From NCBI RefSeq assembly GCF_015291885.1, contig NZ_CP036186.1, positions 1,997,001 through 2,061,000 of the forward strand: a stretch of DNA of 64,000 nt, written 5' to 3'. This DNA is from Stutzerimonas stutzeri (GTDB lineage Bacteria > Pseudomonadota > Gammaproteobacteria > Pseudomonadales > Pseudomonadaceae). Below the pieces are notes generated by a model, which worked only from the letters and a program-made list of their open reading frames with translations, made no database searches and was not told the DNA's origin. Shown piece by piece: positions 8,011 through 30,903 of this stretch (positions are counted from its first letter, which is position 1; each line of letters begins with the position of its first letter). A program made the position numbers and the translations under genes.

Positions 8011-8032
8011 TGGAACCTCCTTGTGGGTGTGG

Positions 8033-9106: not shown

Positions 9107-9117
9107 GGGGGATCTCC

Positions 9118-9327: not shown

Positions 9328-9366
9328 GCTGTGGCTCCTGAGTAGCCGGGCGCTGCGATGCCCTGA

Positions 9367-9699: not shown

Positions 9700-9733
9700 C
9701 CTTGAAACCTCGTAAGTGAATGTATGGGCGCTT

Positions 9734-10939: not shown

Positions 10940-11007
10940 GGATGACATCCTTGATCGAAAAATAAAAGTGAATGGCGTTGCCGCCATGCAGAATGAAGCG
11001 CTGCGTT

Positions 11008-12045: not shown

Positions 12046-12098
12046 GGTCCCGCCTCGCTTGGTGAGAGGTTGAAGGTCGATAAGCGCTTGGCTCGCCG

Positions 12099-13205
12099 TT
12101 AAGGGCGATCCGGTGACCAGGCGATGAACGTTGGCGGGTTGGCCTTGCCCATCAGAGCCTGATCGATCAGCTGCGATACCGTCTGCGCCGAGCGCTTCCA
12201 GGAGTAGCGCTCGACGTTGGCCAGGCCGAGGGTGCGCAGGTCGTCGCGCAGGCGTGCGTCCTGCAGCACGTGGCGCATGCAGCGTGCGATGTCCTCGATG
12301 TTCAGGGGCTCGAAATAGAGCACGCTGTCGCCGAGCACCTCGGGGATCGAGGCGGCCCGTGCTGCGATCACCGGGCAGCCGCAGGCCTGCGCCTCCAGTG
12401 GTGGGATGCCGAAACCTTCGTACAGCGAAGGGAAGACGAACGCTGTCGCGCCCTGGTATTCGCGTACCAGCTGCTCATCGTTGAGTCGGCCGAGTACTCG
12501 CACCCGCGGCTCGCCGCTAACGCTGCAATCGCTGCCAGAAAACACCGAGTGCGAATCGCCGACGATGTGCAGCTCCACGTCATCGAAGCCTTCGAGGCTG
12601 AGGAATGCTGCGACCATTCGTGTGAAGTTCTTGTGCGCATTCGGTGAAGACACGGCTAGCAGATAGGGCCTGCCGTTGTGCTGGCCCGCCGTGTTGACCG
12701 GCGGGTGGAACTTCGCTGCCACCGCATTCGGCACCACGCAGATTTTCTCGCTCGGGTAGCCGTAATAGCGGGCAATTTCCTTGCGCGAGAAATCGCTGAC
12801 GGTGATCAGCGCCTTGATCCGCTTGAGCAGCAACGGCGTAAGGCCTTTGTAGAGGCTGCGGAAAGTACGCGAATAGCTCTCCGGGTGGCGGACGTAGGTA
12901 ATGTCATGATGCGTGGCAATCTGGTTGCGGTAGATCAACGGCGCGGTGTTACACAACGACAGCAGTGGCGGATGCCCGTTACGCGCCAGCCACAGCGGCA
13001 GATCAAGTTGCTCCCAGAGGTGCCCGCGATTACGGCCGATGCGGCGCACCTCCAGACGTTCGGCGCTGGCGCGCGAATGGATGTCGTGAGGGGCGACGAA
13101 TGTCAGGTCTTTGCGCATGGCAGCAAGCTCCAGACAGACCTGTTCGGCAAAACGTTGTACGCCGCGGGTTTCCTGAGTCAGGAAACGAGCGTTGATCACA
13201 ATCAT
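12099..13205 (-). CDS. Glycosyltransferase family 4 (GT-B)
   Basis: A 368-residue GT4 protein. N-domain MIVINARFLTQETRGVQRFA (mannosyltransferase/RfaG-like opening), C-domain nucleotide-sugar site FVFPSLYEGFGIPPLEAQAC with the E-x7-E pair, followed by GCPVIAARAASIPEV. GGAGAG precedes the ATG. 53 bases separate it from the acyltransferase start downstream. A GT-B fold retaining enzyme acting on the repeat unit; specificity unknown. Confidence 0.92.
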   Translation of the reverse strand: MIVINARFLTQETRGVQRFAEQVCLELAAMRKDLTFVAPHDIHSRASAERLEVRRIGRNRGHLWEQLDLPLWLARNGHPPLLSLCNTAPLIYRNQIATHHDITYVRHPESYSRTFRSLYKGLTPLLLKRIKALITVSDFSRKEIARYYGYPSEKICVVPNAVAAKFHPPVNTAGQHNGRPYLLAVSSPNAHKNFTRMVAAFLSLEGFDDVELHIVGDSHSVFSGSDCSVSGEPRVRVLGRLNDEQLVREYQGATAFVFPSLYEGFGIPPLEAQACGCPVIAARAASIPEVLGDSVLYFEPLNIEDIARCMRHVLQDARLRDDLRTLGLANVERYSWKRSAQTVSQLIDQALMGKANPPTFIAWSPDRP

Positions 13206-13384
13206 GAGCGGCTCTCCTTGCGGGAAGGTGCGTCGTTTTCAGAAGCGAGGATGACGAGAGGTCATTGCGCCGCTGGTGAGCAGCGACGCAGGGTCAAAGC
13301 AGAGTGGTCAGCGCCGTGATGACTGGGTTGTCATACGCGCTTGGAATGCGGCGGACGGAGGTGCAAGCGGTTCAGTGATTTCAC

Positions 13385-14707
13385 TCAACCTTCGTGCGGC
13401 ACAGCCCGCAGGCTGACGATCTTCGGGAATCCCGTCAGCTCAACCGTGGCGCTGCAGCCACGATCTTTGCCTGGACATTGCCACTCGGTGCTGGTGGTTA
13501 CTCGTCCGTGCTGTGGCTGTGCGGTATCGATCAGAGCGACCCGCCCAGCATCCTGCGTGCTGGCTTGCAGCTCGACCGAGCGCGGTTTACCAGCGCTCCA
13601 TGCCACGATCAGTTCTTCGTCGCCGCGGGCAAAGCGCAGCATCACCACGTCACCCTTCGCGTTCTCTTCACGTCCAACGAAGGCGTACTGGCTGACGATC
13701 TCGCTGATGGCGCTGAGTACCAGGTATGCCGGCTTCAGTGTGAAGTCCTGCCGAACCAGGCCGAAGTTGTGCTCTCGCTCGGTCTTGTCGGTGCCGTCGT
13801 TTCTGAAGTCGTACCACCACATGCCCTTGATACTGGGGAGCGTTTTGGCGAGGAAGAAGCTGCGGGCGAGATAGGCGGCCTGCAGGGTCTCGTCGATGCC
13901 GCACGCGCCCTGATGCGACGGCCAGGCCATTTCAGTCAAATAGAGCGGCACTGGGCGTCCGGCGGCGCGGGTCAGGTCCTTGTCGACCTCGGTCATCCAT
14001 TCGATCCAGGCTTCAGGTGTGTTACGTCGCCAGCCTCGGCAGTGCACGTAAGGGTGCAGTGACAGGCCGTCCACCGATTGCATCAGCCCGTTCTCCAGCA
14101 GACGCAGGGCGAAGCCGGATTCGATGCCCTGGGTGGTCACGGCACCAGCGAGCACCTTTGCATTGGGTGCGCGCTGGCGGATGATGCCCGAGGCATCGGC
14201 GATTAGCCGTGCGTAATCCTGGGTGAACTCGGGGTCGCGCGGATCTTCGACGTCCCATTCGTTCCATATCTCGTAATAGGCCACCTGGCCCTTCAGCTCT
14301 TCAGTGATGAACTCGACATAGCGGTTGAAAGCTGCTCTGACCGGCTCGGTGCGGGGCTTTTCTCCACCGCCGTAGTGCGAGTTGCCATAGCCGAGGATGA
14401 ACTGGGTGCTCAGCCCTTGAGCGGCGGTTGCCTTGAGATAACGGTGCCAGTGCGGTTCGATCTTCAGCTGCCCAGGCCTGCGCTCCACATAGGCCCAGTG
14501 AGCATCAGTGCGCACGGAGGTGATGCCAGCGTCGCGCATCATCGCGTAGGCACGGCCGCTGGGGTCGCCCTTGTGCAGCTCATGGGCACAGACGCCGACC
14601 ACGAAAGGCTCCTCGATGGTCTGGGCCGGCGCAAATGGGGCAAGGCCTAGCAGGCCGCCCAGCAGCAGGGCGTTGAGCGGGGTAGAGCGCTTCGTCATGT
14701 GGATCAT
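13385..14707 (-). CDS. Secreted glycoside hydrolase, PslG/GH39-like (clan GH-A)
   Basis: This 440-residue protein has a signal peptide (hydrophobic LNALLLGGLLGLAPF, cleavage near APA at residue 28). It has a TIM-barrel glycosidase pattern: the acid/base glutamate in YEIWNEWD (E150), HPYVHC on the central strand, and the nucleophile glutamate in YLTEMAWPS (E259). Size, motif spacing and genomic setting resemble PslG, the endoglycosidase of the Psl operon. Periplasmic hydrolases in exopolysaccharide operons trim or release polymer during export. The start may be the ATG at 14698 instead. The exact GH family is my inference. Confidence 0.85.
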   Translation of the reverse strand: MIHMTKRSTPLNALLLGGLLGLAPFAPAQTIEEPFVVGVCAHELHKGDPSGRAYAMMRDAGITSVRTDAHWAYVERRPGQLKIEPHWHRYLKATAAQGLSTQFILGYGNSHYGGGEKPRTEPVRAAFNRYVEFITEELKGQVAYYEIWNEWDVEDPRDPEFTQDYARLIADASGIIRQRAPNAKVLAGAVTTQGIESGFALRLLENGLMQSVDGLSLHPYVHCRGWRRNTPEAWIEWMTEVDKDLTRAAGRPVPLYLTEMAWPSHQGACGIDETLQAAYLARSFFLAKTLPSIKGMWWYDFRNDGTDKTEREHNFGLVRQDFTLKPAYLVLSAISEIVSQYAFVGREENAKGDVVMLRFARGDEELIVAWSAGKPRSVELQASTQDAGRVALIDTAQPQHGRVTTSTEWQCPGKDRGCSATVELTGFPKIVSLRAVPHEG

Positions 14708-14722
14708 CCGTGAAGGTAGGTC

Positions 14723-16021
14723 TCAGGTCAGGTGCTGCAACTCGGGCAGCCGTTGTGCCGCCAGGTTGTTGCTCGGGGCGCGAGCCGGGGTCAGCACGTG
14801 GGAGATGGCCAGGCCCAGGAAAAGCGTGGCGATGGACACCTCCAGTACATCCGTGGCCCAGGCGACCAGACAGATGCAGAACACGATCGGCAGCAGGGCA
14901 CTGCGCAGCCGCGGGCCACGTTCATGCAGACGCAGCATGAGTGGAAAGGTCAGCAGGTAGAGCAGCACGCCGAATACGCCGAGCATGCCCCACAGGTACA
15001 GCGCGGTGCTGTCGGCGATGCTAAGCAGTTCGAGCCCCGGCAATGGATAGACTTGGCCGGCACTGCCCACGGCACCGAACCCCGCGCCCCACAAGGCCCA
15101 GCCCTCGCGGGTGATGACTTCGATGAAGTTCGGCCAGCTGTTGATCAACCGATCGGCAAAGGAGGCCAGTAGGGTGCCGTTGTTGGCTGCATTTGGGTCC
15201 AGGCTTAGCACCAAGCTGGCCATAGGCAGGGCGAGGCCAACCAGCACTGCAACGAGAAAGGCCGTCGCACTGGCAAAGCGGTAGGCCGTCACTATCAGCA
15301 TCAACAGCGTCAGTACGTACGCTGCGGCAGTGGATTTATTGGTGGTCAGCACGATGCCGATCAGGGCGGCCATGTAGAGCAGTACCCGCAGTAGCCGCGA
15401 GTGCGTGAATGCGGCGATGAACAGGCTGTAGATCGCGATCATCACCGACAGCGCGGTAGACATGCGGGCGAAGCCGCCGATGCGGTCGATGTCGTCGAAT
15501 GCCCAGGAGCGGTTGGCGCTCAGTTCCACCTCGCCGACCATGTAGCTGTAGCCTTTCCAGGGCACGTTGGTGAGCATGTCCAGGGCAATGCCGACAAAGC
15601 TGGCGATCAGACAGAAGCCGATGATCCGCCGCAGGAGCGCCAGCCGTAACTCCAGATGCCGGCCGCAAATAAGGCCGAACAGCAATGGTATGTAGATGAA
15701 CAGGCTGAAACCGATGTTGGCCAGCTCCGCGCCGTGCATCAGTGCCAACTGGGCGGACGTGATAATTCCCAGCAGCACCAGCCAGAACGCCGGCCAGCCG
15801 CGATAGCGCAAAAGCTCCAGGCCCAGCGCGATCAGACAGGCAATCTTGGGCAGGTACAGCAGCCAGGATATTCCGGCCATGTCGAAGTAATAGCGCAGCG
15901 CCCCGGAAAAGGTTTCAGTCAGCAGCAGCGAGGCGACGACCAGCGTCAACAATGTCGGCTTGTCGAAGGCCAACGGATTCGAGTCGCGTCGCCGCGGGGT
16001 AATCAGCAGGCTCTGGTTCAT
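14723..16021 (-). CDS. O-antigen polymerase/ligase-like membrane protein (Wzy/WaaL type)
   Basis: This 432-residue protein is almost entirely hydrophobic, with about 10-12 predicted helices and a large periplasmic-type loop near residues 300-350 (around NSWPNFIEVITREGWALWGAGFG). That layout is typical of Wzy polymerases and WaaL ligases, which have little primary-sequence conservation. In an operon with Wzx and Wzc it is most likely the Wzy repeat-unit polymerase. The start at 16021 (MNQSLLIT) lies inside the 3' end of the upstream GT4 gene, an overlap of 107 bases. Confidence 0.75.
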   Translation of the reverse strand: MNQSLLITPRRRDSNPLAFDKPTLLTLVVASLLLTETFSGALRYYFDMAGISWLLYLPKIACLIALGLELLRYRGWPAFWLVLLGIITSAQLALMHGAELANIGFSLFIYIPLLFGLICGRHLELRLALLRRIIGFCLIASFVGIALDMLTNVPWKGYSYMVGEVELSANRSWAFDDIDRIGGFARMSTALSVMIAIYSLFIAAFTHSRLLRVLLYMAALIGIVLTTNKSTAAAYVLTLLMLIVTAYRFASATAFLVAVLVGLALPMASLVLSLDPNAANNGTLLASFADRLINSWPNFIEVITREGWALWGAGFGAVGSAGQVYPLPGLELLSIADSTALYLWGMLGVFGVLLYLLTFPLMLRLHERGPRLRSALLPIVFCICLVAWATDVLEVSIATLFLGLAISHVLTPARAPSNNLAAQRLPELQHLT

Positions 16022-17225
16022 GGTGGATTCTCGTTCCCTGAAGTGTTTCACGCAGGATGGTCTGGTACTGATCCAGCATGCGTTCCATATCCAGCAGCGG
16101 CAGTACGCTGGCCCGCGCCTGGCTGGCGAGCCGCTGCCGCAGTGCGCCGTCGATGTAGAGCCAGAGCATGGCGATGCCGAGTGAGTCGGGATCATCGGGT
16201 GAGCAGAGCAGGCCATTGCATTCGTCGCGGATGATCTCTGGCAGCCCGCCCATGTTGCTGGCGATCACCGGCAGGTGGTTGGCGCAGCCTTCGACGGCCA
16301 CTAGGCCGAACGGCTCGGCCCACAGCGACGGCACCACCAGCACATCGATGCTCTGCATGAAGGCGTCGCTGTCGCAGTAGCCGAGAAAGCTGACCTTGGT
16401 TGGATCGGCCATGGCCTTGAGCTTGGCCTCGTATTCCAGCTTGCCGCGCCCGGCAATATCCAGCCGCGCATCGATGTCCAGCCGCTGGAACTGCTCGATC
16501 AGCCAGCCGACGCCCTTGTTCTCCGATAGTGTGCCGATGTACCCGAACCGCAGCGGATGGTTGCTGCGTTGCTTTAGATTGCTGTCCTGGCCAGGATTGG
16601 CCGGCGTGCAGTTATGCACCACATGGCGGCGGGCGTGGCTGAAGTAGCCTTGCGTGGCGACTCGTTCGAGCACGAAGCGGCTGACACCGACCACGGTGGC
16701 AACTTGCGCCGACGCACCGGCGTGGCCGAGGCGGAACACCGAGCACAGGCCGCACTGGCGCTGGCAGCACTTGCCGCGATTGAACATCGTGTCCTTTGGG
16801 CAGAGCAGGTACAGGTCGTGCAGCACCTGAACGATGGGCAGCCCCGCAGCGGTGATTTCGTCCCAGGCGGAAATCGACCAGCCGGTGAGGTTGTTGCTGA
16901 CGACGATGTCGGGTCGCTCCTGCTCGATCACGTCGCGTACGTAGCGGCGCATGTCGCTGTTGTAGCGGTCGCGGTAGTGCCAGCCTAATCGGGCAACACG
17001 GCTCGGGCGCTGCTGGGTGTAATGCCAGTAGATGTTGGCCAGGCCGGCGCGATAGATCCGCACGCCTGCCTGAAGCTGCATGTTCAGTCCGGCATCCGGG
17101 CCGGTCGCCAGCACTGCCACCTCACAACCACGCCGCTGCAACCCTTCGGCCAGGTGCCGGAGGATGACTTCTGCGCCGCCGCCGACATGCGGGGTGTAGA
17201 ACGCATTGAGGAATAGGATCTTCAT
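15915..17225 (-). CDS. Glycosyltransferase family 4 (GT-B)
   Basis: A 436-residue GT4 transferase. The N-domain begins MKILFLNAFYTPHVGGGAEV with the glycine-rich loop of the family; the C-domain carries LVVPSLWAEPFGLVAVEGCA (E-x7-E) and PVIASNMGGLPEII. Residues 150-175 hold a cysteine cluster (CCQRQCGLC), seen in a branch of GT4 proteins. The last 35 residues overlap the start of the polymerase gene in another frame, so translational coupling or a long tail is possible. Confidence 0.92.
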   Translation of the reverse strand: MKILFLNAFYTPHVGGGAEVILRHLAEGLQRRGCEVAVLATGPDAGLNMQLQAGVRIYRAGLANIYWHYTQQRPSRVARLGWHYRDRYNSDMRRYVRDVIEQERPDIVVSNNLTGWSISAWDEITAAGLPIVQVLHDLYLLCPKDTMFNRGKCCQRQCGLCSVFRLGHAGASAQVATVVGVSRFVLERVATQGYFSHARRHVVHNCTPANPGQDSNLKQRSNHPLRFGYIGTLSENKGVGWLIEQFQRLDIDARLDIAGRGKLEYEAKLKAMADPTKVSFLGYCDSDAFMQSIDVLVVPSLWAEPFGLVAVEGCANHLPVIASNMGGLPEIIRDECNGLLCSPDDPDSLGIAMLWLYIDGALRQRLASQARASVLPLLDMERMLDQYQTILRETLQGTRIHHEPEPADYPAATRLESVGLRQADIVDAGRRLAAAD

Positions 17226-17287: not shown

Positions 17288-17797
17288 TCAGGAGTAGGAC
17301 TGGAGATAACGGGTGGGTACCCGGACCTTCTGCTCACGCTGCAGCAGGTTGAGCAGGATGACGGAGCGTTCTTCGCCGTCGCTGCTGACGAAGATCGCTT
17401 CGATGTCGCTGAAGCTGCCCCCGCTGACCTGGACCCGTTCGCCGGGTGAGAACGTCGCCGCCGCCATGGTCTGCGGCTGGGCCAGGCGCTGTCGCAACTG
17501 TTCGATCAGCTCGTCGCGTACCGGCGTTGGCTGGCCGCCGAAGCTAACTACGCGGCTGACGCCCCGAGTGGAGCGAATCGGGTACCAGTTGTCGTGAATG
17601 CAATCGAGGCGGATGAACAGGTAGCCCGGAAACAGCGCCTCGCCGGACTTGGTCCCCTGTGAGCCGCGCAAGGGCGCAGGCGCCTTGAGCGGGCGGTAGC
17701 ACTCGAAGTGCTGGCGCTGCAGGTGCTCCTCGGCGCGGGCTTCCTGGCGTGGCTTGGTCTGTATCAGGTACCAGCGTGCGGTATTGCTCGGTGTCAT
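17288..17797 (-). CDS. rfaH: RfaH/NusG-like transcription antiterminator
   Basis: This 169-residue NusG paralog opens with ARWYLIQTKPRQEARAEEHL and contains ALFPGYLFI, the NusG N-domain signature, followed by a C-terminal KOW-type segment (FSPGERVQVSGG). The short length, CYRPLKAP in place of the NusG equivalent, and its place in a polysaccharide operon point to RfaH rather than NusG. RfaH binds RNA polymerase paused at an ops element and suppresses termination across long surface-polymer operons. An exact ops core lies in this operon's leader (26552-26560). GGAAGG precedes the ATG. The IS end is only 86 bases upstream. Confidence 0.9.
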   Translation of the reverse strand: MTPSNTARWYLIQTKPRQEARAEEHLQRQHFECYRPLKAPAPLRGSQGTKSGEALFPGYLFIRLDCIHDNWYPIRSTRGVSRVVSFGGQPTPVRDELIEQLRQRLAQPQTMAAATFSPGERVQVSGGSFSDIEAIFVSSDGEERSVILLNLLQREQKVRVPTRYLQSYS

Positions 17798-17875
17798 GGG
17801 GATGTCCTTCCCTGATTGGCCTGCCCGAATCCCGATGGCAGGCGGAATGTCGTCACGCCAGTGTCAGCGTTGCCC

Positions 17876-17883
17876 TTTTTTCC
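17876..17883. repeat. Target-site duplication, left copy (8 bp)
   Basis: TTTTTTCC directly abuts the left end of the ISL3 element and is repeated exactly at 19189-19196. Eight-base AT-rich duplications are the rule for ISL3 elements. Confidence 0.93.
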
Positions 17884-19188
17884 GGTTCTTCGCGGACTCT
17901 GGGGGAAGAGCGAGTTGACAGTCAGGGAAGCAGGTAAATTGGCAGTCGCCAAACACACCCTTCACCTGTCCCTGCTGTCGCCGTGCATCCTATTGATCTT
18001 GCCTCGTTCTGGCCAGGCTATGACGCCGTTGCCTGCCGTTCATCCGCCAACAACTCCCTTCTGATTGAGCTCGAGCCTCAAGCCGGTTCAGTGCCCAAGT
18101 GCGGGCGTTGTGGTCAGCTCAGTCCGTTGATTCACGAGCGCCGAATTCGTCTGGTGCGCGATCGTGATCTGTTCGATCAGCGCGTCTTGCTTCAACTACC
18201 CGTGCGCCGAGTCGATTGCCTGAACTGTGGTCGGGTGACCGAGCGGATCGACTGGCTGGAGCCTGCATCTCGCCTGACCCGGCGGTTACAGGTCTGGCTC
18301 GAAAGCTTGCTGCGGCTGCTGCCGATCAGCCACGTCAGCCAGCTCACCGGCCTGCACTGGCACACCCTCAAGACGCTCGACAAGCGCCGCCTGCAAGCCG
18401 AGGTAGGCACCTTCTATTCAAGCGGTGTCCGCCGCCTGGTGATGGACGAGTTCGCCCTGCACAAGGGGCATCGCTATGCCACGGTCATCATGGACGCCGA
18501 GCGAACACGGGTGCTGTGGGTCGGCCACGGCAACAGCCGTGAGGCGATCCGCCCGTTCTTTGAATTGCTCGGCGAGCACTGCCAGCAGATTGAGGCGGTG
18601 GCCATGGACATGAACACGGCTTTCGACCTGGAGGTGAAGAAGCATTGCCCGCAGGCCGAAGTGGTGTACGACCTGTTTCACGTCGTCGCGCGCTACGGTC
18701 GGGATGTGATCGACCGAATCCGGGTCGACCAGGCCAACCTTCTGCGCGAAGACAAGCCGGCACGAAAGGCGGTCAAGCAGAGTCGTTGGCTGCTGCTGCG
18801 CAACCGCGACAACCTGAAGGACGGACAGGCCGTGCAGTTACAGGAGCTGCTTGCTGCCAACCAGCCGTTGGCTACGGTCTATGTGCTCAAGGATGCGCTG
18901 AAGGATGTTTGGTACGCCCCCAGCGTACGAGAGGGTTGGCGACGCTGGCGAACCTGGCTGCGACATGCTCGCGAGAGCGACCTCGCGCCGCTGCAACGCT
19001 TCGCTCGCAACCTGCGCAAATACGCGCGAGGCATCCTTGCCAGTGCTCACTTCCACATGCATACCAGCGTCCTTGAGGGTGTTAACAACCGCATCAAGGT
19101 AATCAAGCGCATGGCCTATGGATTCCGGGACTCGGAGTACTTCTTCCTGAAAATCAAGGCCGCCTTCCCCGGGAAAGCGCGATGAACC
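17884..19188 (+). mobile_element. ISL3-family insertion sequence, 1305 bp, complete
   Basis: The ends are imperfect inverted repeats. The left end begins GGTTCTTCGCGGACTCTGGG and the right end read inward begins GGTTCATCGCGCTTTCCCGG; 18 of the first 24 positions agree. The element is bounded by perfect 8-bp direct repeats (17876-17883 and 19189-19196). It contains one full transposase gene in the opposite direction to the polysaccharide operon. The intact duplication, ends and transposase indicate a recent and possibly still mobile insertion. It sits in the last codons of the WbqC-like gene and just upstream of rfaH. Confidence 0.95.
17983..19185 (+). CDS. ISL3-family DDE transposase
   Basis: This 400-residue transposase starts at a GTG (MHPIDLASFW). 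An N-terminal zinc-binding region has paired cysteines (PKCGRCG and DCLNCG). The catalytic core includes VMDEFALHKGHRYATVIMD (first Asp), AMDMNTAFDLEV with YDLFHVV (second Asp), and LEGVNNRIKVIKRMAYGFRD (Glu). Length and motifs are those of ISL3 transposases. The stop codon overlaps the right inverted repeat, as is common for compact IS elements. Confidence 0.96.
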   Translation: MHPIDLASFWPGYDAVACRSSANNSLLIELEPQAGSVPKCGRCGQLSPLIHERRIRLVRDRDLFDQRVLLQLPVRRVDCLNCGRVTERIDWLEPASRLTRRLQVWLESLLRLLPISHVSQLTGLHWHTLKTLDKRRLQAEVGTFYSSGVRRLVMDEFALHKGHRYATVIMDAERTRVLWVGHGNSREAIRPFFELLGEHCQQIEAVAMDMNTAFDLEVKKHCPQAEVVYDLFHVVARYGRDVIDRIRVDQANLLREDKPARKAVKQSRWLLLRNRDNLKDGQAVQLQELLAANQPLATVYVLKDALKDVWYAPSVREGWRRWRTWLRHARESDLAPLQRFARNLRKYARGILASAHFHMHTSVLEGVNNRIKVIKRMAYGFRDSEYFFLKIKAAFPGKAR

Positions 19189-19909
19189 TTTTTTCCTGTC
19201 CCTCGACCACGCTGAAGCGCTGCAGCAATTCCTTGATCTCTTCGCGGCTGTTGAACATCAGCACGTCGATGATCGACAGCGACGGCACGAACGGATGCTT
19301 GAGCTGCGCGTAGGTGACCTCATCCATGCGCAGGAAGCGCAGCAGCAGGCCGTCGGCGCGGAAGCGGGCAGGGCAGTACAGCTCCATGCCGCCGATGGGG
19401 TTGAGGTAGAGCTCGCCGTCCATGCGATGGGTGATCTGGATGACGCGGTCCTGCATGTCCATCTTCGCCGGCAAGCCGAGGCTGGAGCCGCGGTAGATCG
19501 GCGTGCGGATGTTCAGGTAGGCGCAGAGGCAGCGCAGCGAGTTTTCGGTGAACAGCGCCAGATTGCGTTCCGGGCACTGCAGGATGCCGCGGATCAGCGG
19601 CAGCACCGCGTCGCGCTGGGGTGCCTTGGCGTAGCAACGCTCGAGGGTCAGCATCAGCCCCGCGGCTTCCTTGTCGAAGTCGTCGCAGAGCCAGCGCTCG
19701 TTGATGCGCTCGGTCTGGTGGCCCTTCTTCAGCGGGAAGCTGATGAGCTTGGGTTGGCCATTGACGAGAATCCGGTTGCGGTTCATCCAGGAGCCCCTGA
19801 CGAATTGCAGGTCGTCACCCAGCACGAACACGTTGCTGAGTGCGATCAACTGAAAATAGCCCAGGTAGGGAAATAGGTAGGGCTGCATCATCGAGACGGT
19901 TCTGAGCAC
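19154..19909 (-). CDS. WbqC-like family protein, 3' end replaced by IS sequence
   Basis: The protein (251 residues) begins from a GTG with GGAGG 6 bases upstream and quickly shows MMQPYLFPYLGYFQLI, the WbqC family opening. WbqC-like proteins lie beside DegT aminotransferases in O-antigen and capsule loci; their reaction is not firmly established, with amide-type sugar modification proposed. The last residues (FIALSRGRRP after EGQEKR) and the stop come from the IS. Rejoining the flanks without the IS and one duplication gives EGQEKRATLTLA and a stop, so only about six native C-terminal residues are lost and the protein may still work. Confidence 0.85.
   Translation of the reverse strand: MLRTVSMMQPYLFPYLGYFQLIALSNVFVLGDDLQFVRGSWMNRNRILVNGQPKLISFPLKKGHQTERINERWLCDDFDKEAAGLMLTLERCYAKAPQRDAVLPLIRGILQCPERNLALFTENSLRCLCAYLNIRTPIYRGSSLGLPAKMDMQDRVIQITHRMDGELYLNPIGGMELYCPARFRADGLLLRFLRMDEVTYAQLKHPFVPSLSIIDVLMFNSREEIKELLQRFSVVEGQEKRFIALSRGRRP
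19189..19196. repeat. Target-site duplication, right copy (8 bp)
   Basis: TTTTTTCC abuts the right end of the ISL3 element, identical to 17876-17883. On the operon strand it reads GGAAAAAA, within codons of the WbqC-like gene. Confidence 0.93.
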
Positions 19910-19931
19910 GGTGCACCTCCTTGTCTGGCGA

Positions 19932-22142
19932 TCAGGCTTGCTGGGTGTAGGTGTAATAGCCGTAGGCGCCACTGTCGTACGGCGAGGTCGAGGCCTTGCG
20001 CTTCACGGCATTGAGGATCACGCCCTTGAGCAGCACGCCGTTCTGCGCGAGCCGCCGCTTGGATGCATCGATCTGCGAGCTGGTGCTGAGGCCGAAGCGG
20101 GCCACCAACAGGTTGGTGCCCGACTGCTGGGCGACCAGTACGGCGTCGGTCACCGCGAGCACCGGCGGCGTATCGATGATGATGAAGTCGTAGAGCTTTT
20201 CCGCTTCACGCAGCAGGCGGGAGAAGTTGTCGTGCATCAGCAGTTCGGACGGATTCGGCGCGGAGAACCCGGCGGAGATGAAGTGCAGGTTCTTCTGCTC
20301 GGTGCGGTTGGTGATCTCCGCCAGGTTCAGGCCACTGGCCAGTGCATCCGACAGCCCGTGACGCGGCGCCATGCCGAACAGCGTGTGCAGGTAGCCGCGG
20401 CGCATGTCGGCATCGATCAGCAGCACGCGCTGGCCGGTCTGCGCGATCACCGCAGCAAGGTTGCTGGACACGAACGACTTGCCAACCGAAGGGGTCGGGC
20501 TGGTGATCATCAGCACTTTGTTGCGCGCCTCGAGCATGGCGAACTTGAGGCTGGTACGCAGGCTGCGCAGCGATTCGACCGCCAGATCGGTCGGTTCGGT
20601 GAGGCTGAGCAGTCGGGTCTTGCCGTCGCGGCTCTTGCGGCTGCGATTGAGCTGATCCTGAGAGGCGCTGTAGGGCAGGCCGGCATAAACCGGTACGCCA
20701 AGCTTCTCGATCACGTCCGGGCTTTCCACACCGCGGTAGAAGGCCTGGCGCAGCAGGATGACTGCCGCCGAGACGAGCAGGCCGACGAAGATCGCGATGG
20801 CCACCACCAGCGGTTTGACCGGTTTCGACGGCTTCTCGATCATCGAGTAGGCGTTGTCGATGATGCGCACGTTGCCGATGGTGCCGGCGCGCAGGATGTC
20901 TTGCTCCTGTGCCTGGTTCATCAGCAGCGTGTAGGTCTGGGTCGTGACTTCCATGTCACGTTGGAGGCGTAGCAACTCCTGCTGCGTCATGGGGAGAGCG
21001 TCGACCTTCTTCAGCAGCTGAGCTTTCTGCGCCTGCAGCTCGTTCATCTGGGTCATCAGTGTCCGGTAGGTCGGGTGTTCGCGGGTATAGAGGCGGTCGT
21101 ACTCCACGCGCTTGAGAGACAGTTCGGAAATCTGTGTTTCCAGGGCGACGATCTGATCCAGCACGCCTTTGGTCTCGATGCTGATGTCTACGGACTTGGA
21201 GCTGGTCTGGTAGGCGTTCAGCGCCGCCTCGGCTTTTTCCAGTTCCTTACGCACCTGTGGCAGCTGCGAGCGCAGGAACTCAAGGCGCTGGGCCGCTTCA
21301 GCCGAACTGCGCTGGATGTTTTGACTGACGTACAGGCGGCTGATTTCATCAAGCACCCGGTTGGCCAGTTGTGGATCGGGATCTTCCAGGGACATGTAGA
21401 TGATCCCCGAGTCCTTGCCGGCTTCGCCGACTTTCAGGCGGTTCTGGTAATCCAGCGCGGTGGTCTGCGGACGATTCCTGACCAGCAGGAACTCGGTGCC
21501 GGGGCGCGCCTGCAGGTTGGCGACCTGCACCTTGAAGCCTTGGCTCTCAACAGCCTGGTTCACTTGGCCACGCAGGAGCAGCTGCTGCTCGTCGTCATAC
21601 AGGCTGTAGTTGTCTGCATTGCCGGCCACCAGTGTGAGCTCCATGCCCAGATAGGCCTCCGGAACATCGAGCTGGAATACGTCGAGCTTCTCCCCGCCCC
21701 AGGCGTATCCAACCAAGCCGAACAGCGGAGCAGCCAGGGCACCATCGGTCGCGGGGTCATGTCTGCGAGCCAGGTAGCTACCAATGAGCGGGAAATGCCG
21801 CGGCTTCGCCACGATATAGAGCTTGAGCTCTTCTACTGCCTTTCCCAGCACCGCGCGGGATTTGAGCAGGGAGATTTCAGTGACCGCCTGGGACACCGAA
21901 TCCGGCCGGGCCGATATTTCCGGCACGCCGGTGATCGCGGCTTTTTTCGGTTCGATCTGGATCATCGCGGTCGCCTGGTAGATCGGCGTGGCGATCAGGG
22001 CATAGAGCACGCCCAGTGCAGCGAAAAAGCCGGTAATGGAGATGATCAGCGCCTTGTGATCGTAGGCGGTGCGCATTATTCCGGCGAGGTCGATGCGGTT
22101 GTCCGCGTCATATTCCAGCGAAGAGCGGGTCAAGGCAGTCAT
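19932..22142 (-). CDS. wzc: Wzc-type polysaccharide copolymerase / bacterial tyrosine kinase
   Basis: This 736-residue inner-membrane protein controls chain length and export of capsule or exopolysaccharide. It has a first membrane helix near residues 30-52 and a Wzz domain. A periplasmic coiled-coil region runs about 250-400. A second helix with a proline-rich PSKPVKPLVVAIAIFVGLLV is near 440-460. The BY-kinase domain has Walker A SPTPSVGKSF (about 545-553) and Walker A'/B VLLIDADMRRG. The C-terminal tail has five tyrosines (PYDSGAYGYYTYTQQA), the autophosphorylation cluster. GAGGAAGG precedes the ATG. No partner phosphatase (Wzb) or outer-membrane channel (Wza) lies nearby. Confidence 0.94.
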   Translation of the reverse strand: MTALTRSSLEYDADNRIDLAGIMRTAYDHKALIISITGFFAALGVLYALIATPIYQATAMIQIEPKKAAITGVPEISARPDSVSQAVTEISLLKSRAVLGKAVEELKLYIVAKPRHFPLIGSYLARRHDPATDGALAAPLFGLVGYAWGGEKLDVFQLDVPEAYLGMELTLVAGNADNYSLYDDEQQLLLRGQVNQAVESQGFKVQVANLQARPGTEFLLVRNRPQTTALDYQNRLKVGEAGKDSGIIYMSLEDPDPQLANRVLDEISRLYVSQNIQRSSAEAAQRLEFLRSQLPQVRKELEKAEAALNAYQTSSKSVDISIETKGVLDQIVALETQISELSLKRVEYDRLYTREHPTYRTLMTQMNELQAQKAQLLKKVDALPMTQQELLRLQRDMEVTTQTYTLLMNQAQEQDILRAGTIGNVRIIDNAYSMIEKPSKPVKPLVVAIAIFVGLLVSAAVILLRQAFYRGVESPDVIEKLGVPVYAGLPYSASQDQLNRSRKSRDGKTRLLSLTEPTDLAVESLRSLRTSLKFAMLEARNKVLMITSPTPSVGKSFVSSNLAAVIAQTGQRVLLIDADMRRGYLHTLFGMAPRHGLSDALASGLNLAEITNRTEQKNLHFISAGFSAPNPSELLMHDNFSRLLREAEKLYDFIIIDTPPVLAVTDAVLVAQQSGTNLLVARFGLSTSSQIDASKRRLAQNGVLLKGVILNAVKRKASTSPYDSGAYGYYTYTQQA

Positions 22143-22193
22143 TGGGAATCCTTCCTCATGGTGCGTTTTTGCAAAGAAGCGGGGTCGGGCTGA

Positions 22194-23126
22194 TCAGCTC
22201 CTGGCCAGCCGTGGGCTCAACCGGCGCAGCAGGTTGAGGCTGATGTTCTGGGCGATGGTTGAAAGCGCCTGGATCTTGCTGAACGGCGAGATCAGCGACA
22301 GGCACTCGCCGAACACCTGGATCAGGAAGTACTCGCAGAGCGCGTTGTTGCCGATGCGGTTGTAGTAGCGCGCCAGGGAGTAGTGGGCGTGCATGGCCAT
22401 CTGGATGCGCTGCCGGCTCGGCTGCATGGAGAAGATGCCGCCCTCGTGCACGCGGTAGGCGGCGGGGCTGATGCCTTCCATGAACTTGCCCTTGCCGTAG
22501 GCGCCGAGCAGCGACCACCAGCAGATATCCAGCACTTTCACGCCGAGCAATTCCGCTGGCAGTTCCTGAATCAGGTTGCGAAAGCACACGGTCAGCGTCG
22601 AGAGCGGGCGGCCCTGCATCAGTTCCAGCGCGGTGGCGTCCTTGCGCAGCTTTCCGGTCAGCTGCGGGCTCTGGATGATGCCCTGGCTGTTGAACATGAA
22701 CGCATCGTGATAGGTGATCACGTAGTCACGATGCTGCTCGAGAAAGTCCACCTGCTGCTGCAGCTTGGTCGGATCGGTCCAGTAGTCGTCGCCTTCGCAA
22801 TAGGCGATGTATTTGCCCCCCGCACGGGCGAACAGCCGCGTGCTGAATGGCACGCCGAGGCTGAACTGGTTCTGCGTCTGGTAGATCGGCTTGATGATGC
22901 TGGGGTAGCGCGCCGCGTAGTCGGCGATGATCGCGGCGGTGGTGTCAGTCGAGGCGTCGTCGTGGACGATCACCTCGAAAGGGAAATCCGTTTCCTGCTG
23001 GAGGAAGCTCTCCAGCGCCTTCCTTATAAAGGATGCGTGGTTGTAGGCCAGGCAGACGACGCTCAGCAGCGGTTCGGTCTTGCCGCCCCAACGTTCAATC
23101 AAGGCTTGCTCGCTCTTCAATTCCAT
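22194..23126 (-). CDS. Glycosyltransferase family 2
   Basis: This 310-residue GT-A transferase has LLSVVCLAYNHASFIRKALE, the nucleotide-sugar opening, FEVIVHDDASTD and the acidic YCEGDDYWTDPTKLQ motif. Likely an inverting transferase that adds one sugar of the repeat unit, in the cytoplasm. The first 32 bases overlap the end of the flippase gene, so translation is probably coupled. Confidence 0.92.
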   Translation of the reverse strand: MELKSEQALIERWGGKTEPLLSVVCLAYNHASFIRKALESFLQQETDFPFEVIVHDDASTDTTAAIIADYAARYPSIIKPIYQTQNQFSLGVPFSTRLFARAGGKYIAYCEGDDYWTDPTKLQQQVDFLEQHRDYVITYHDAFMFNSQGIIQSPQLTGKLRKDATALELMQGRPLSTLTVCFRNLIQELPAELLGVKVLDICWWSLLGAYGKGKFMEGISPAAYRVHEGGIFSMQPSRQRIQMAMHAHYSLARYYNRIGNNALCEYFLIQVFGECLSLISPFSKIQALSTIAQNISLNLLRRLSPRLARS

Positions 23127-24657
23127 TTTTGGATGCTCGCTTGGTGATGAGTAGATGAAGCTTGAGTAGCAGTGATTTCGAGGTCGCCGCGACCAGCAGC
23201 AGGCAGATGAACCCGCTTGCAGCCAGCGCCATCAGAATGTCGAAACGGTTGTCGCTGACGATCAGCAGGAACAGCGGCTCGCCCAGCGCCACGCCGATCA
23301 CGGTCGCGGCGGTAATCCGCAACATGTCTCGTGCCCAGACGCCCTGCAGGCCCGGAGCAAAGCTCCGGTGCACCACCGGTGGCCAGATCACGAAGGTCGC
23401 CAGGCGCAGGAAGAACCACGCCAGTGCGGCACCGTAGGCGCCGTGGGCAAGCGCTGTGTAGATCACGATCGGCACGCTGACGGCGGTGGAAACCACGCTG
23501 TACCAGATGTGCAGGCGTAGCTGGCCGTAGGCGTACTGCAGGTAGAACTGGAAGGCGCCGACCGCCATCAGTGCGCTGCCCGGCACGTACCAGAACAGCA
23601 TGCGTTCGCTCCATTGGGCAGCGGCAGCGTCGCCAGTCCAGGCGAAGATCAGCGCCTGACCGTGCCAGGCGATCACCGCAGCCATGGGAAACAGCACGCT
23701 GCAGACGAAGCGGGTGGCGTTCAGATACAGCCGCTCCATCTCGGCGATCCGCCCTTCGGCCACGAGCATGGTCATGCGCGGCAGCAGCGTCTGCACCAGT
23801 GGGTTGGTCAGGGTCATGATGCCGGTGGTGATCAGCGCCACCAGCGAGAAGTAGCCGTACTCCTTGAGCAGCAGCACCTTGGAAAGCAGCACCTTGTCCA
23901 GCTGGGTCAGCACGATCCACAGCAGTGAGGTGAAGAACATGCCGCCGGCGAACGGCAGCACCGGCTTGACCACGCGCCAGTCGATGCCGGTGAGCAAACG
24001 TGGGCTGGCCAGTTGCACATAAGCCTTGCTGGCAAAGGCCAGCGTTTCCACCAGGGCGACGGCCGTTTGAAATAGGAAGAAGTCCAGCGGGTCTTGCGAG
24101 ACGTAGGCGACCAGGAACAGGCCGCCGAAGTAACGCAGGGTAGCGATCAGTACATTCGTTGCGTTCAGCCAGCCATGCAATTCGACGCCCTGCAGACCGC
24201 TTTTGTACAGCGTCGCGTAGAGCCTCAGCCCGACCATCAGGCCCATCAGGCTGATGCACTGCATGATGGTGCCGGTACTCAATTCGCGGGTCTGCAGCCA
24301 GGTTTCGGCGATCCAGCCGCTGCTCAGGTAGATCGCCACGCAGGTTGCCAGCGTAATCGGCAGCAACAGCAGCTCGAACGAGCGCAGAAGGCGCCCGGCG
24401 GGGCCGGGCGCGGCGGACAGGTCGCCCTGCCCGCGGTAGTGCGCGACCTGTCGGACCAGTGCAGGCGACATCCCGGCATCGAGTAACTGCAACCAGGCCT
24501 GGAGCACCGCGAAGAAACCAATCAGGCCGTAGGCTTCGGCGCCGAGGTGCTTCAGGTAGAACGGCAGGATCAGAATGCCGACAAGCAGGGCATACGCCTG
24601 CCCGAGGTAATTCAGGCTGGTGTTGCGGATCACCGATAACCGCTTGGGATCTGACAT
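23095..24657 (-). CDS. wzx: Wzx-type lipid-linked oligosaccharide flippase (MATE/MOP superfamily)
   Basis: This 520-residue protein has about 12-14 membrane helices and starts NTSLNYLGQAYALLVGILIL with LPFYLKHLGAEAYGLIGFF, the hallmark of polysaccharide-export flippases. It moves the undecaprenyl-linked repeat unit across the inner membrane for polymerisation by the Wzy-like protein at 14723. It starts 3 bases after the aminotransferase stop; GGAGG lies 13 bases upstream of the ATG. Confidence 0.93.
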   Translation of the reverse strand: MSDPKRLSVIRNTSLNYLGQAYALLVGILILPFYLKHLGAEAYGLIGFFAVLQAWLQLLDAGMSPALVRQVAHYRGQGDLSAAPGPAGRLLRSFELLLLPITLATCVAIYLSSGWIAETWLQTRELSTGTIMQCISLMGLMVGLRLYATLYKSGLQGVELHGWLNATNVLIATLRYFGGLFLVAYVSQDPLDFFLFQTAVALVETLAFASKAYVQLASPRLLTGIDWRVVKPVLPFAGGMFFTSLLWIVLTQLDKVLLSKVLLLKEYGYFSLVALITTGIMTLTNPLVQTLLPRMTMLVAEGRIAEMERLYLNATRFVCSVLFPMAAVIAWHGQALIFAWTGDAAAAQWSERMLFWYVPGSALMAVGAFQFYLQYAYGQLRLHIWYSVVSTAVSVPIVIYTALAHGAYGAALAWFFLRLATFVIWPPVVHRSFAPGLQGVWARDMLRITAATVIGVALGEPLFLLIVSDNRFDILMALAASGFICLLLVAATSKSLLLKLHLLITKRASKNGIEERASLD

Positions 24658-24660
24658 GGG

Positions 24661-25863
24661 TTATTGCTGGCCTCCGGATGTCAGGGGCATGCGCGGGTAG
24701 TCGGCGCCCGGCAGGCGCTCCGTGGCGCTGAACAGCCCGAACGCTTCGGCAAGGGGCTGGAACAGCGTGCGGCTCGACTGCTCGCTGTGGATCGCCTCCT
24801 GGATGAGCGTCTGCATGACGTTTTCCTGCACCTTGCGCGGCAGACCGGGATAGATCGGCAGGCACAAAACCTTGCGGCTCAACGCTCGCGAGCGCGGCTG
24901 CGGCACTTGCGGCTGTAGATGATCGAGCGTGTCCAGCGAGGGGTAGAAGTAGCGGCGGGGGTTGATGCCGTTCTCGTTCAGTTGCGAGCGGCAGCGCAGC
25001 AGCTGGCTTTCATCGGCAAGGGCAACGGGGAAATAGCTGTAGTTGCACTGGGATTCGGGCTGCGGTCGTTGCAGGTCGAAATGCTCGCCGAGGCGCCGCT
25101 CGTAGCGATGGCCGATCTCCGCCCGGCATTCGAAAATCAGCTCGATGTCGTCGAGTACGCACATGCCCATCGCGGCAGAGAACTCGTTGAGCTTGGCGTT
25201 GATGCCGATGCCTTCGATCTGGTCGGTGTCGACGATGCCGAAGTTGCAGAGCAGACGGATGCGATCGGCCAGCGCGTCGTCGTTGGTGACGATGGCGCCA
25301 CCCTCGATGGTGTGAAACAGCTTGGTCGCATGGAAGCTCAGCGTGCTGATATCGCCCCAGTCGTAGACCGACCGCCCCTTGTGACGAACGCCGAACGCAT
25401 GGGCGCCGTCGTAGACGACCCTCAGATTGTTCTTGCGCGCGATCTGCTCGATGCGTTCGACATCGCAAGGATTGCCGAATACGTGCGTCGCGACGATGGC
25501 GGAGGTGTTGGGCTGGATATTTCGCTCGATCTGTTCCGGGTCCAGATTCCAGGTCGCCGGATCGATGTCGGCGAAGATCGGCTTGATGCCTTCCCATTGC
25601 AGCGAGCTGGTGGTGGCAACGAAGCTGAAGGGGGTGGTGATGGCGCTGCCGGTCAATCCCAGCGCTCGATAGGCAATCTGCAGCGCGATGGTGCCGTTGT
25701 TGGTGAGGATGATGTTCCTCACCCCGAGGTAGTCCTTCAGCCGTTGCTCGAGCGCAGTCACTAACGGTCCGTTGTTGGTGAGCCAGCCGGTGTTGTAGAT
25801 CCTGTCGATGTAAGCCTTGAACTTGTTTTTGCTGCCCATGTACGACTTGGTCACGTTGATCAT
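24661..25863 (-). CDS. DegT/DnrJ/EryC1-family PLP-dependent sugar aminotransferase
   Basis: A 400-residue aminotransferase of nucleotide-sugar pathways. NNGPLVTALEQRLKDYLG and TNNGTIALQIAY form the N-terminal PLP pocket; AIVATHVFGNPCD follows. The PLP lysine is in SFHATKLFHTIEGGA. The family converts keto-sugars (for example 4-keto-6-deoxy-hexose nucleotides) to amino sugars. Together with the WbqC-like gene downstream this suggests an N-modified amino sugar in the polymer. AAGGAAA precedes the ATG. It is the first intact gene of the operon. Confidence 0.92.
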   Translation of the reverse strand: MINVTKSYMGSKNKFKAYIDRIYNTGWLTNNGPLVTALEQRLKDYLGVRNIILTNNGTIALQIAYRALGLTGSAITTPFSFVATTSSLQWEGIKPIFADIDPATWNLDPEQIERNIQPNTSAIVATHVFGNPCDVERIEQIARKNNLRVVYDGAHAFGVRHKGRSVYDWGDISTLSFHATKLFHTIEGGAIVTNDDALADRIRLLCNFGIVDTDQIEGIGINAKLNEFSAAMGMCVLDDIELIFECRAEIGHRYERRLGEHFDLQRPQPESQCNYSYFPVALADESQLLRCRSQLNENGINPRRYFYPSLDTLDHLQPQVPQPRSRALSRKVLCLPIYPGLPRKVQENVMQTLIQEAIHSEQSSRTLFQPLAEAFGLFSATERLPGADYPRMPLTSGGQQ

Positions 25864-25937
25864 GGTGATTTCCTTATCGAAGCTCAGCCGCCCCCTAATG
25901 CATTCGGGGGTTATCGCTGGGTGCTACAGATGCGCGC

Positions 25938-26372
25938 TCAGACAGGTTGATGCGCGCCGATCGCGCTAGCCCGCCGTGCCCTGCGTTGGTTGTGTCTGAG
26001 GATCATTCGGGTCATCAGGCTGCCGGCGTGGGGATCGCCGTAGTGGAAGATCGCGGTAGCGCGCAGCTGCGCCGGATCACAAGGTTCATTGGCGTGCAGG
26101 GATCGGTAGCCCCAGAACAGGTAGAGATTGCCGGGTACCAGCTGCAGGCGCTGTGGCTTTAGCAGCCCGAGGCCTATCGCGCGGCTAATCAGTTTGCGGC
26201 TCAACTTGTTCTGCAGCAGTGCTTTCTCCACCACGTTGACCAGCACGTATCAGACCTTCCTTAGTTGCAGATTGTTCAACTAGCCGGGTATGCAGGCGTA
26301 GCCATTCTGATTGATATCCCGCGCAATCAATGCCTTGTCCTGATCTTCCGTTCCATAAAAGATTGTTGACAC
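25938..26372 (-). pseudogene. Remnant of a 2OG-Fe(II)/phytanoyl-CoA-dioxygenase-like gene
   Basis: A GTG at 26372 with a good GGGAG site opens a frame of 30 codons (VSTIFYGTEDQDKALIARDI...NGYACIPG), like the start of phytanoyl-CoA-dioxygenase-type proteins. It ends at TAG, and nine codons later there is a TGA. The same frame then runs open to 25938, giving a C-terminal piece with VPGNLYLFWGYRSLHANEP, which holds the distal His/Arg region of the family. The middle with the HxD iron ligands is missing. So this looks like a gene that has lost its centre and gained stops. The alternative, a real 102-residue protein from the GTG at 26246, has no clear ribosome site. Confidence 0.6.
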
Positions 26373-26551
26373 TGTAGTTCTCCCTGCGCAAAGGCGAGGC
26401 GAAACGGTTTGTCGAGCCGCAGCTACTACACGCTGCTGCTGATCGGCGTCCTGGGTGGGAATAAAGAATTACGGCGTAATGCCTGGGCAGTAGGCTTTTA
26501 GCCTGTGACGAAAGTTAATGCCGATCTAAAATATTCTTTTATTTAGACAAA

Positions 26552-26560
26552 GCTACCGCC
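26552..26560 (-). promoter_or_regulatory. ops element core (RfaH recruitment site)
   Basis: On the operon strand the sequence reads GATGGCGGTAGCTTTGTC, containing the exact nonamer GGCGGTAGC that forms the core of the E. coli ops pause element. It is in the correct orientation, 180 bases before the first frame and downstream of the predicted promoter. An RfaH-like gene lies in the same operon. Confidence 0.72.
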
Positions 26561-26645
26561 ATCGACTTGTTTATATGTCGAGTTGAATAACTTATACGTA
26601 ATTCCCCGTCATCTGCGATCGGTAGCGTCCGCGTGCGGCTTTGAA

Positions 26646-26695
26646 AGAATCGGGCATGGCTACCGCACTCCGGGCACTCTGCGAGCCCCGATTCT
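26646..26695 (-). promoter_or_regulatory. Leader hairpin with ops-like octamer in loop
   Basis: A 9-bp perfect inverted repeat (AGAATCGGG / CCCGATTCT) encloses a loop of 32 bases. The loop holds GCGGTAGC (26659-26666 on the operon strand), eight bases of the ops core but with T instead of the first G. It may be a second pause or folding element. It may also be chance. Confidence 0.35.
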
Positions 26696-26837
26696 CTCAA
26701 TGCTTGTGGCGAACGAGCCTGCATCGCTTTACTAAAAGCGATACTAATCAGGCAGGGGATTTAACTCTTGCGCCGCAAAACTTGACCTGTCCAGTTGGTC
26801 TTAAACTGCTCTGCAACGTATTGCTCCCTGTTGCGAC

Positions 26838-26868
26838 TATATATCCGTCATAACGTGAACCAAGTCAA
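26838..26868 (-). promoter_or_regulatory. Predicted sigma-70 promoter of the polysaccharide operon
   Basis: Reading leftward, TTGACT (26863-26868) is followed after 19 bases by TATATA (26838-26843), or after 17 bases by GATATA (26840-26845). Transcription would start near 26830 and read through the leader. Confidence 0.5.
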
Positions 26869-27150: not shown

Positions 27151-27227
<77 letters not shown>

Positions 27228-27394: not shown

Positions 27395-27471
<77 letters not shown>

Positions 27472-30390: not shown

Positions 30391-30456
30391 AGAGATCAGC
30401 GGGATGCCGAAGGCGGGTCCCGCCTGTTTCAACTCGCTGATTTCAGGAGGTTTATC

Positions 30457-30903
30457 ATGAGTTCGTTCCCCATGGCCCCTCTGTTCCGGCAATCCGTGGG
30501 CTTTGATCGTTTCAATGACCTGTTCGAGTCCGCCCTGCGTAACGACACCGGCAGCTCGTATCCACCCTATAACATCGAGAAACACGGTGACGACCAGTAT
30601 CGAATAGTGGTCGCAGCCGCTGGCTTCGAGGAGTCCGACCTCGATCTGCAGGTCGAGCGCAGCGTGCTGACCATTACTGGCGGGCGGCGCGAAAGCGAGG
30701 CCGAGAATGTCACCTATCTGCATCAGGGTATCGCTCAGCGGGCGTTCAAGTTGTCGTTCCGGCTAGCCGACCACATCGAGGTGAAAGGCGCTGCGCTGAA
30801 CAGTGGCCTGCTCAACATCGACCTGGTGCGCGTCGTGCCGGAAGAGGCCAAGCCCAAGCGCATCCCGATCAATGCCGATCAGCGGCCCGCGCTGGAGGGT
30901 TGA
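30457..30903 (+). CDS. Small heat-shock protein, Hsp20/IbpA family
   Basis: This 148-residue alpha-crystallin-type chaperone holds unfolded proteins for refolding by DnaK/ClpB. It opens MSSFPMAPLFRQSVGFDRF (IbpA-like), the alpha-crystallin domain spans about 35-125 with PPYNIEKHGDDQYRI and the LxxGLLxI-type motif (LNSGLLNIDLVRVVPE), and the IxI-like tail region ends KPKRIPIN. AGGAGG at 30445-30450 sets the ATG. The AU-rich 5' leader may fold as a ROSE-like RNA thermometer: TGATTTCAGGAGG can mask the ribosome site, but this is inference. Confidence 0.95.
   Translation: MSSFPMAPLFRQSVGFDRFNDLFESALRNDTGSSYPPYNIEKHGDDQYRIVVAAAGFEESDLDLQVERSVLTITGGRRESEAENVTYLHQGIAQRAFKLSFRLADHIEVKGAALNSGLLNIDLVRVVPEEAKPKRIPINADQRPALEG

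Follow-up and report, generated by a model that had tools for sequence, protein, structure and literature searches.

In Escherichia coli, RfaH loads at the ops element on paused RNA polymerase and then stays on. Here we describe an rfaH gene that lies inside a polysaccharide gene cluster, behind a leader with two ops-like sites, in a stretch of 64,000 nucleotides (nt) from Stutzerimonas stutzeri (RefSeq assembly GCF_015291885.1, contig NZ_CP036186.1, positions 1,997,001 to 2,061,000). This whole stretch is called the window, and positions are counted from its first letter. The locus shares with the E. coli RfaH/ops (JUMPstart) system an RfaH equivalog, the base-reading residues, and an ops core in the untranslated leader of a polysaccharide operon. 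It differs in that rfaH is in mid-operon and that there are two sites, and no Rfam JUMPstart match was obtained in the whole window or, at the gathering score, in 21 loci.

NusG paralogs encoded within operons are known, as UpxY and TaA (PMC7593976; this and the other articles with PMC numbers are represented here by sections of their text). UpxY of Bacteroides fragilis is encoded in the capsule operon that it activates and blocks termination in the leader upstream of its own gene (PMC7819879), and the adjacent upxZ interferes with other operons (PMC7593976). The window RfaH belongs to a different NusG subfamily, scoring 77.4 bits with the UpxY model against a cut-off of 100. Shewanella CL7 RfaH, LoaP, TaA, and ActX are likewise NusG paralogs whose genes lie within or next to the operons they act on (PMC7593976, PMC7819879), but the sections consulted report no ops recruitment in their own leaders; LoaP binds an RNA hairpin (PMC12691694). 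The recruitment of in-operon NusG paralogs was stated to be unknown in 2020 (PMC7593976), and the reading of ops has been regarded as acquired late, for acting in trans (PMC7819879, PMC13015549).

The gene cluster itself has a described counterpart. The EPS273 locus of Pseudomonas stutzeri 273 has, by name and size, the same products in the same order around RfaH, and EPS273-M has an RfaH domain, from which it was proposed to be a direct activator (PMC5532660). Deletion of the tyrosine kinase gene almost abolishes exopolysaccharide and biofilm there; the deletions reported are of genes other than that of RfaH, ops or a leader is not found in the available text, and the main text does not use the word 'operon' (PMC5532660). 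Tandem ops sites with RfaH occur in the literature on an in vitro template, and in the open-access literature we found no report of a mid-operon RfaH behind a conserved two-site ops leader. What is known, then, is the cluster and the existence of in-operon NusG paralogs, and what is seemingly new is the mid-operon RfaH with its two-site leader. Judging from the sequences compared below, the locus is quite probably an exopolysaccharide operon under autogenous control in cis by its own RfaH. The locus family, an in-operon RfaH with a recognition site in the same operon, comprises about ninety distinct loci, many of them in easily grown environmental bacteria. It makes testable the action of ops in cis, the reason why two sites are kept, and the path from an elongation loop to heterogeneous exopolysaccharide and biofilm expression.

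The RfaH protein and the two-site leader

The features on which the argument rests are the following.
17288-17797, minus strand: rfaH, 169 amino acids (aa), TIGR01955 at 189.4 bits, most ops-reading residues kept
26552-26560, minus strand: ops site 2, GGCGGTAGC, exact and conserved core (the nonamer of the earlier note)
26562-26581, minus strand: stem-loop directly before ops site 2, TCGAC/GTCGA, with a 10-nt loop
26646-26695, minus strand: predicted RNA stem around ops site 1, arms at about 26687-26695 and 26646-26654
26659-26667, minus strand: ops site 1, TGCGGTAGC, with T at position 1 (absent from the earlier note)
26839-26868, minus strand: sigma70-type operon promoter, TTGACT, 17 nt, GATATAT, conserved in the leader alignment

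An earlier note on this DNA had called the open reading frame (ORF) at 17288-17797 RfaH-like. The assignment holds, since its TIGR01955 score is well above the cut-off of 144.5 and a second RfaH model was also passed (137.5 against 124), whereas the UpxY, LoaP, and NusG models all stayed below their cut-offs. A search of the genome for other copies, which the note had called for, gave two genes with a NusG domain, NusG and this RfaH. In E. coli RfaH, the side chains of K10, H20, R23, and R73 contact ops directly (PMC5995543). Their counterparts in the window protein are K15, H25, R28, and R78. Among 51 aligned proteins (that of the window and 50 of the 120 listed homologs), the counterparts of R16, R23, Q24, T72, R73, E48, and R138 are invariant; at K10, 49 proteins have K and 2 have R, and at H20, 37 have H and 14 have N. 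The counterparts of G74 and V75 are kept, like those of Q24 and T72. E48 and R138 hold the autoinhibited state in E. coli.

The nonamer GGCGGTAGC precedes the gene cluster on the minus strand, in the place and orientation that the earlier note gave. The same note described a single site; the nonamer is real, but a second core, TGCGGTAGC, had been overlooked. The two sites are 107 bp apart, and both have the ops core on the non-template strand of the untranslated leader. GGCGGTAGC occurs four times in the window (mean of shuffles 0.69; 1 of 100 shuffles reaches 4), and another of these copies, at 9608-9616, has the operon orientation and lies inside a short unassigned ORF. The genome search proposed in the note found 114 copies in the 4.64-Mb genome (60 + 54). 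The nonamer alone is thus weak evidence, and it is conservation that makes the case.

For the comparison of leaders, rfaH of at least 68% identity was found in 47 of 56 genomes of the genus, and stretches of at most 20 kb were taken around the 46 genus rfaH genes other than that of the window and around the best 80 of 119 named species-genome loci. Removal of identical rfaH reduced 127 loci to 99, and five more with short upstream sequence were dropped, leaving 94, the window included; these loci are related, so the counts do not stand for independent events. The earlier note held that lack of conservation of the nonamer in close relatives would speak against a link with RfaH. The core proved to be conserved: 93 of the 94 loci have GCGGTAGC in the coding strand at a distance of 5-9 kb upstream from rfaH, compared with 35 for the opposite strand; for 400 permuted words, the mean is 7.4 loci and the maximum 58. 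Two exact cores 60-160 bp apart are present in 83 of the 94 loci, against an average of 0.05 and at most 7 loci for the permuted words and none for the opposite strand. With one mismatch allowed per core, the pair is seen in 44 of the 45 covered genus leaders, the exception being L058 (L and G numbers are our handles for loci and genomes); the leaders of L034 and L066 were too short to be scored for the pair. In Stutzerimonas, most site-1 copies read TGCGGTAGC, and in Pseudomonas GGCGGTAGC; GGCGGTAGC is also the usual form of site 2. The spacing between the sites is 75-147 bp, a figure that, like those on the TG dinucleotide given below, comes from a first set, which held some duplicates (93 of 105 loci tandem).

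An extended motif, GGCGGTAGCWTTGYC, has 32 matches in the 56 genomes, of which 28 are at the leader, one is on a tandem fragment (G022:C285), and three are elsewhere; the reversed control has 11. The single match in the window genome is the leader, and none was found in the nine genus genomes without a close rfaH. A looser tandem pattern has 47 matches in the 56 genomes, 37 at the leader, nine elsewhere, and one leader-like (G022:C285 again, a contig without rfaH). Its reversed control gives 88, so that this pattern says nothing about uniqueness.

The leader alignment (31 representatives of 44) reads, from its 5' side, TTGACt, 17 or 18 nt, GATAnCT, then a part that differs from subclade to subclade, and finally the two sites, site 1 first. 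The stem around site 1, with a minimum free energy of -28.7 kcal/mol for a 70-nt piece, is read in the near clade only. Among the leaders left by a redundancy filter specific to this test, 21 of 30 have a stem ending 0-3 nt before the core of site 1 that is stronger than dinucleotide shuffles at p<0.1, and 22 of 46 have one before site 2; the same measurement at five control offsets gave 1-3 of 30 and 0-7 of 46. The stem sequence varies while the pairing is kept (e.g. TCGAC/GTCGA and CGGC/GCCG), and some sites have no stem. RNAalifold, run on ops-anchored ungapped alignments of the sites, gave no consensus except weak pairing inside or just after ops, and a scan of the window leader with Rfam gave no family at E values up to 10. 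A stem just upstream of the core could stabilize the pause. Since it resembles the conserved stem-loop reported for JUMPstart elements (PMC2864571), it is not new in kind.

Some blocks of the 5' leader are kept within subclades, GACCAACTGGACAGGTC in the window (26784-26800) and ACAGGGATGG or similar elsewhere. These are reminiscent of RsmA/CsrA sites, with GGA in a loop.

Position of rfaH in the operon

With the rfaH start set by alignment to the window protein, the median gap to the preceding ORF is 30 nt in 92 distinct loci; gaps above 150 nt occur only in the window (1356) and in L171 (179). A promoter scan restricted to the sigma70 type placed the leader of 76 of 93 loci beyond the 95th percentile of the scores of in-operon windows. 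In the 250 nt before rfaH, a sigma70-type signal above this level was found in 5 of 93 loci, which is background.

Of 23 loci selected from Stutzerimonas and Pseudomonas, 16 have the order first gene, degT, wzx, family 2 glycosyltransferase (GT2), wzc, wbqC, rfaH. Among the exceptions, L128, L153, L159, and L162 have no match to the first gene and wbqC, L125 has none to the first gene, L145 has none to degT, GT2, and wbqC, and L171 matches wzc alone. In the relatives within Stutzerimonas whose locus is intact, rfaH is the seventh gene and lies about 7.8 kb beyond the leader. The Pseudomonas loci shown often have some 450 bp between GT2 and wzc, room for a further gene, and 'gene seven' is therefore strictly a Stutzerimonas count.

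Because the leader sites and the gene order are conserved, a promoter signal before rfaH is lacking, and the extended motif is not found in genomes without a close rfaH, the comparative anatomy strongly supports an action of RfaH on the leader of its own operon.

Proposed mechanism and alternatives

Polymerase would start at the sigma70-type promoter, pause at both leader ops sites, and there receive RfaH. The loaded RfaH would keep the polymerase elongating past Rho and couple it to ribosomes through the cluster, and a loaded polymerase that reaches rfaH would give more RfaH, which makes a positive elongation loop. Rare unaided read-through over the approximately 7.8 kb could seed this loop. 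The two sites most likely work as either/or, with more loading when RfaH is scarce. The earlier note had proposed an in-operon RfaH with positive feedback; the anatomy bears out the arrangement, while pausing, loading, antitermination, the feedback, and the logic of the sites are what we infer.

The earlier note also expected the loop to make expression switch-like, with cells either on or off, and this expectation is not supported by the modeling. In a minimal model with non-cooperative loading, run at 205 parameter points per rule, the one-site and either-site rules are bistable at 0 points each, and the rule that needs both sites is bistable at 12. At low RfaH (basal 0.01, gain 1), the steady state rises from 0.100 with one site to 0.625 with either/or sites. 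The time spent at zero RfaH is 70% with one site, 28% with either/or, and 93% with both needed, in one stochastic run per rule at one parameter set. These model results suggest that tandem sites would fit a role in sensitivity better than one as a latch, and noise-driven heterogeneity without a latch is possible. A latching switch that needs both ops sites and gives stable on and off cells would agree with the joint conservation of the sites and with the few bistable points of the both-sites rule. It is nevertheless improbable, given that the other two rules are bistable nowhere, that RfaH of E. coli CFT073 works with a single ops per transcription unit (PMC9765446), and that the spacing of the sites varies over the range given above.

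Several observations weigh against the reading that RfaH acts through ops on its own operon. In all 51 proteins, T68 and N70 of the E. coli ops interface are replaced by P and R; these are not base-reading side chains, and the name RfaH is kept on the profile score. The AlphaFold2 models, made with 51 and 75 sequences, both show the C-terminal domain as a NusG-like beta-barrel and not as the autoinhibited hairpin, at moderate confidence (mean predicted local distance difference test score 63.6 and 75.9; no control protein included); such a fold, if real, would lessen the need for ops. Both window sites have the TG at 12-13 and not at 11-12, where the pause-type TG of E. coli ops stands, and pausing may differ. 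In the 93 tandem loci of the first set, the TG of site 1 is at 12-13 in 80 and at 11-12 in 10, and that of site 2 is at 11-12 in 45 and at 12-13 in 40; it stands at 12-13 in most sites of Stutzerimonas, and the majority of site-2 copies in Pseudomonas have it at 11-12, a one-base shift of the presumed pause relative to the core. On this account, the window sites are best called ops-like. The exact pair is missing from 11 of the 94 loci (L058, L059, L068, L128, L148, L153, L159, L160, L169, L171, and L172), although L059 and L068 have a second core with one mismatch; L171 has no core in the 5-9 kb interval. Nineteen of the 47 genomes with a close rfaH lack an exact GGCGGTAGCWTTGYC at the leader, and the stems pass before just the 21 of 30 and 22 of 46 sites noted above. 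Lastly, the window operon is interrupted by an ISL3 element, and the window genome has one other leader-like ops copy (L178), 244 bp before a PqiA-type gene and on its coding strand.

Could these observations be better explained otherwise? That the nonamer is there by chance, with no functional link to RfaH, would agree with its 114 copies in the genome, but we give this practically no credence in view of the near-universal core, the tandem pair in most loci, the far lower permuted-word and opposite-strand controls, and the conservation found across genera. The beta-barrel in both models, together with a 2026 preprint that places beta-folded RfaHs preferentially within or beside long operons (PMC13015549), raises the thought that a constitutively active RfaH in cis loads without ops and that the cores serve mainly as pauses or RNA structure. 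We consider this quite unlikely, as the counterparts of K10, H20 (or N), R23, and R73 are kept, even if those of T68 and N70 are not, the E48 and R138 counterparts are invariant, and the conserved core includes G4, G5, A7, and G8 of ops, which are needed for RfaH action and not for pausing (PMC5995543). A more serious contender, unlikely but far from negligible, is that RfaH does act at ops but is made mainly from an undetected promoter in wbqC or by another sigma factor, so that there is no real loop. RfaH is needed for the first round of loading, and the window rfaH frame is intact though severed from its leader by the insertion sequence; yet the sigma70-type signal before rfaH is at background and the median gap to the preceding ORF is short.

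Taking autogenous control through the leader as the preferred reading, we offer one extension of it tentatively, and would not expect it to hold in full. RfaH would have kept its reading of ops with essentially one target, its own operon, from a gene approximately seven genes past a two-site leader, so that polymerase must be licensed in order to make the licence. Its fold may be NusG-like and not autoinhibited, intermediate between the in-cis NusG paralogs and the trans-acting RfaH of E. coli, and the tandem sites would set the threshold for a heterogeneous on state.

Targets, origin, and state of the window operon

The window genome has 13 GGCGGTAGCN{1,2}TG sites, of which 11 are in or opposite ORFs of at least 296 codons, one is in the leader, and one is L178. 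The site DNA of L178 was matched in 1 of 55 other genomes (G004) and its gene side in many; in the remaining genomes, the match starts from just the gene side or just the far end, or is absent. L178 was rejected as a conserved second target, since its site DNA is shared with G004 alone; it could be a private target of the window genome. As far as seen, the RfaH loop has one conserved target, its own operon.

In a tree of 81 hand-chosen RfaH proteins, those with tandem leaders form one supported clade (100/96), in which 26 of 29 rows are tandem. A neighboring group of 16, of which 14 have an ops core just after rfaH, joins it at a fork with support of 94/83. Twelve of 37 order-wide loci (L189-L225) likewise have rfaH followed by ops, and the tandem layout is seen in L186-L188, from another genus of the family, among 40 of 85 order-wide matches. 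It is a reasonable inference from these sequences that rfaH and ops have long been linked here and that the two-site layout with rfaH in mid-operon has a single origin.

A second RfaH type (L079-L092, 40-56% identical) precedes an ops core on its own strand. The sequence GGCGGTAGCGTG is found in 12 of these 14 genus loci, 141-366 nt past the rfaH match, and L091 and L092 have GGCGGGAGC; a CAGG/CCTG stem often stands before the core. In L081, the products of the next genes are a BBP2_2 porin, a Poly_export protein, and a Wzc-like kinase.

The remaining features of the window operon are as follows.
6940-17225, minus strand: downstream cluster of glycosyltransferases, acyltransferases, and unassigned ORFs
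17876-17883 and 19189-19196: 8-bp repeats TTTTTTCC bordering the ISL3 element
17884-19188, plus strand: ISL3-family insertion sequence (PF01610, NF033550; ends placed by eye against L035)
17983-19185, plus strand: ISL3 transposase
19154-19972, minus strand: WbqC-like protein, 3' end running into the insertion sequence (PF08889; comparison with L035)
19932-22142, minus strand: Wzc-like tyrosine autokinase (PF23607, PF13807, PF02706)
22194-23126, minus strand: family 2 glycosyltransferase (PF00535)
23095-24657, minus strand: Wzx-like flippase (PF01943)
24661-25863, minus strand: DegT/DnrJ/EryC1 aminotransferase (PF01041)
about 26372-25938, minus strand: broken remnant of the first cistron (compared with the 257-aa counterpart in L035)

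The ISL3 element sits between wbqC and rfaH, on the strand opposite to the operon; in the relatives compared, the end of wbqC is some tens of bases from rfaH. Its 8-bp repeats are intact, so the insertion is probably recent. The first cistron in the window has an in-frame stop and is about 340 bp shorter than in L035. The earlier note had described a 20-kb leftward operon. A continuous operon of this length is likely to be the ancestral state, but it is not the present state of the window genome, where the feedback loop is probably impaired by the insertion sequence. For the first cistron, a Pfam search (257 aa in L035) gave no family, and a PhyH-like label, considered at first, was dropped on this result.

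L051 seems, from its ORFs and the position of its site, to share the deletion in the first cistron (window 26249-26261). Its leader is very like that of the window clade, yet its RfaH is only 83% identical, which hints at recombination in this region. Just upstream of the leader are two equally scoring tRNA genes (27154-27227 and 27398-27471), and the same pair is present in seven of the seven relatives' loci scanned. Further upstream, a match to the ROSE_3 RNA thermometer is found at 30398-30462 (65.3 bits) and also in six of these seven loci.

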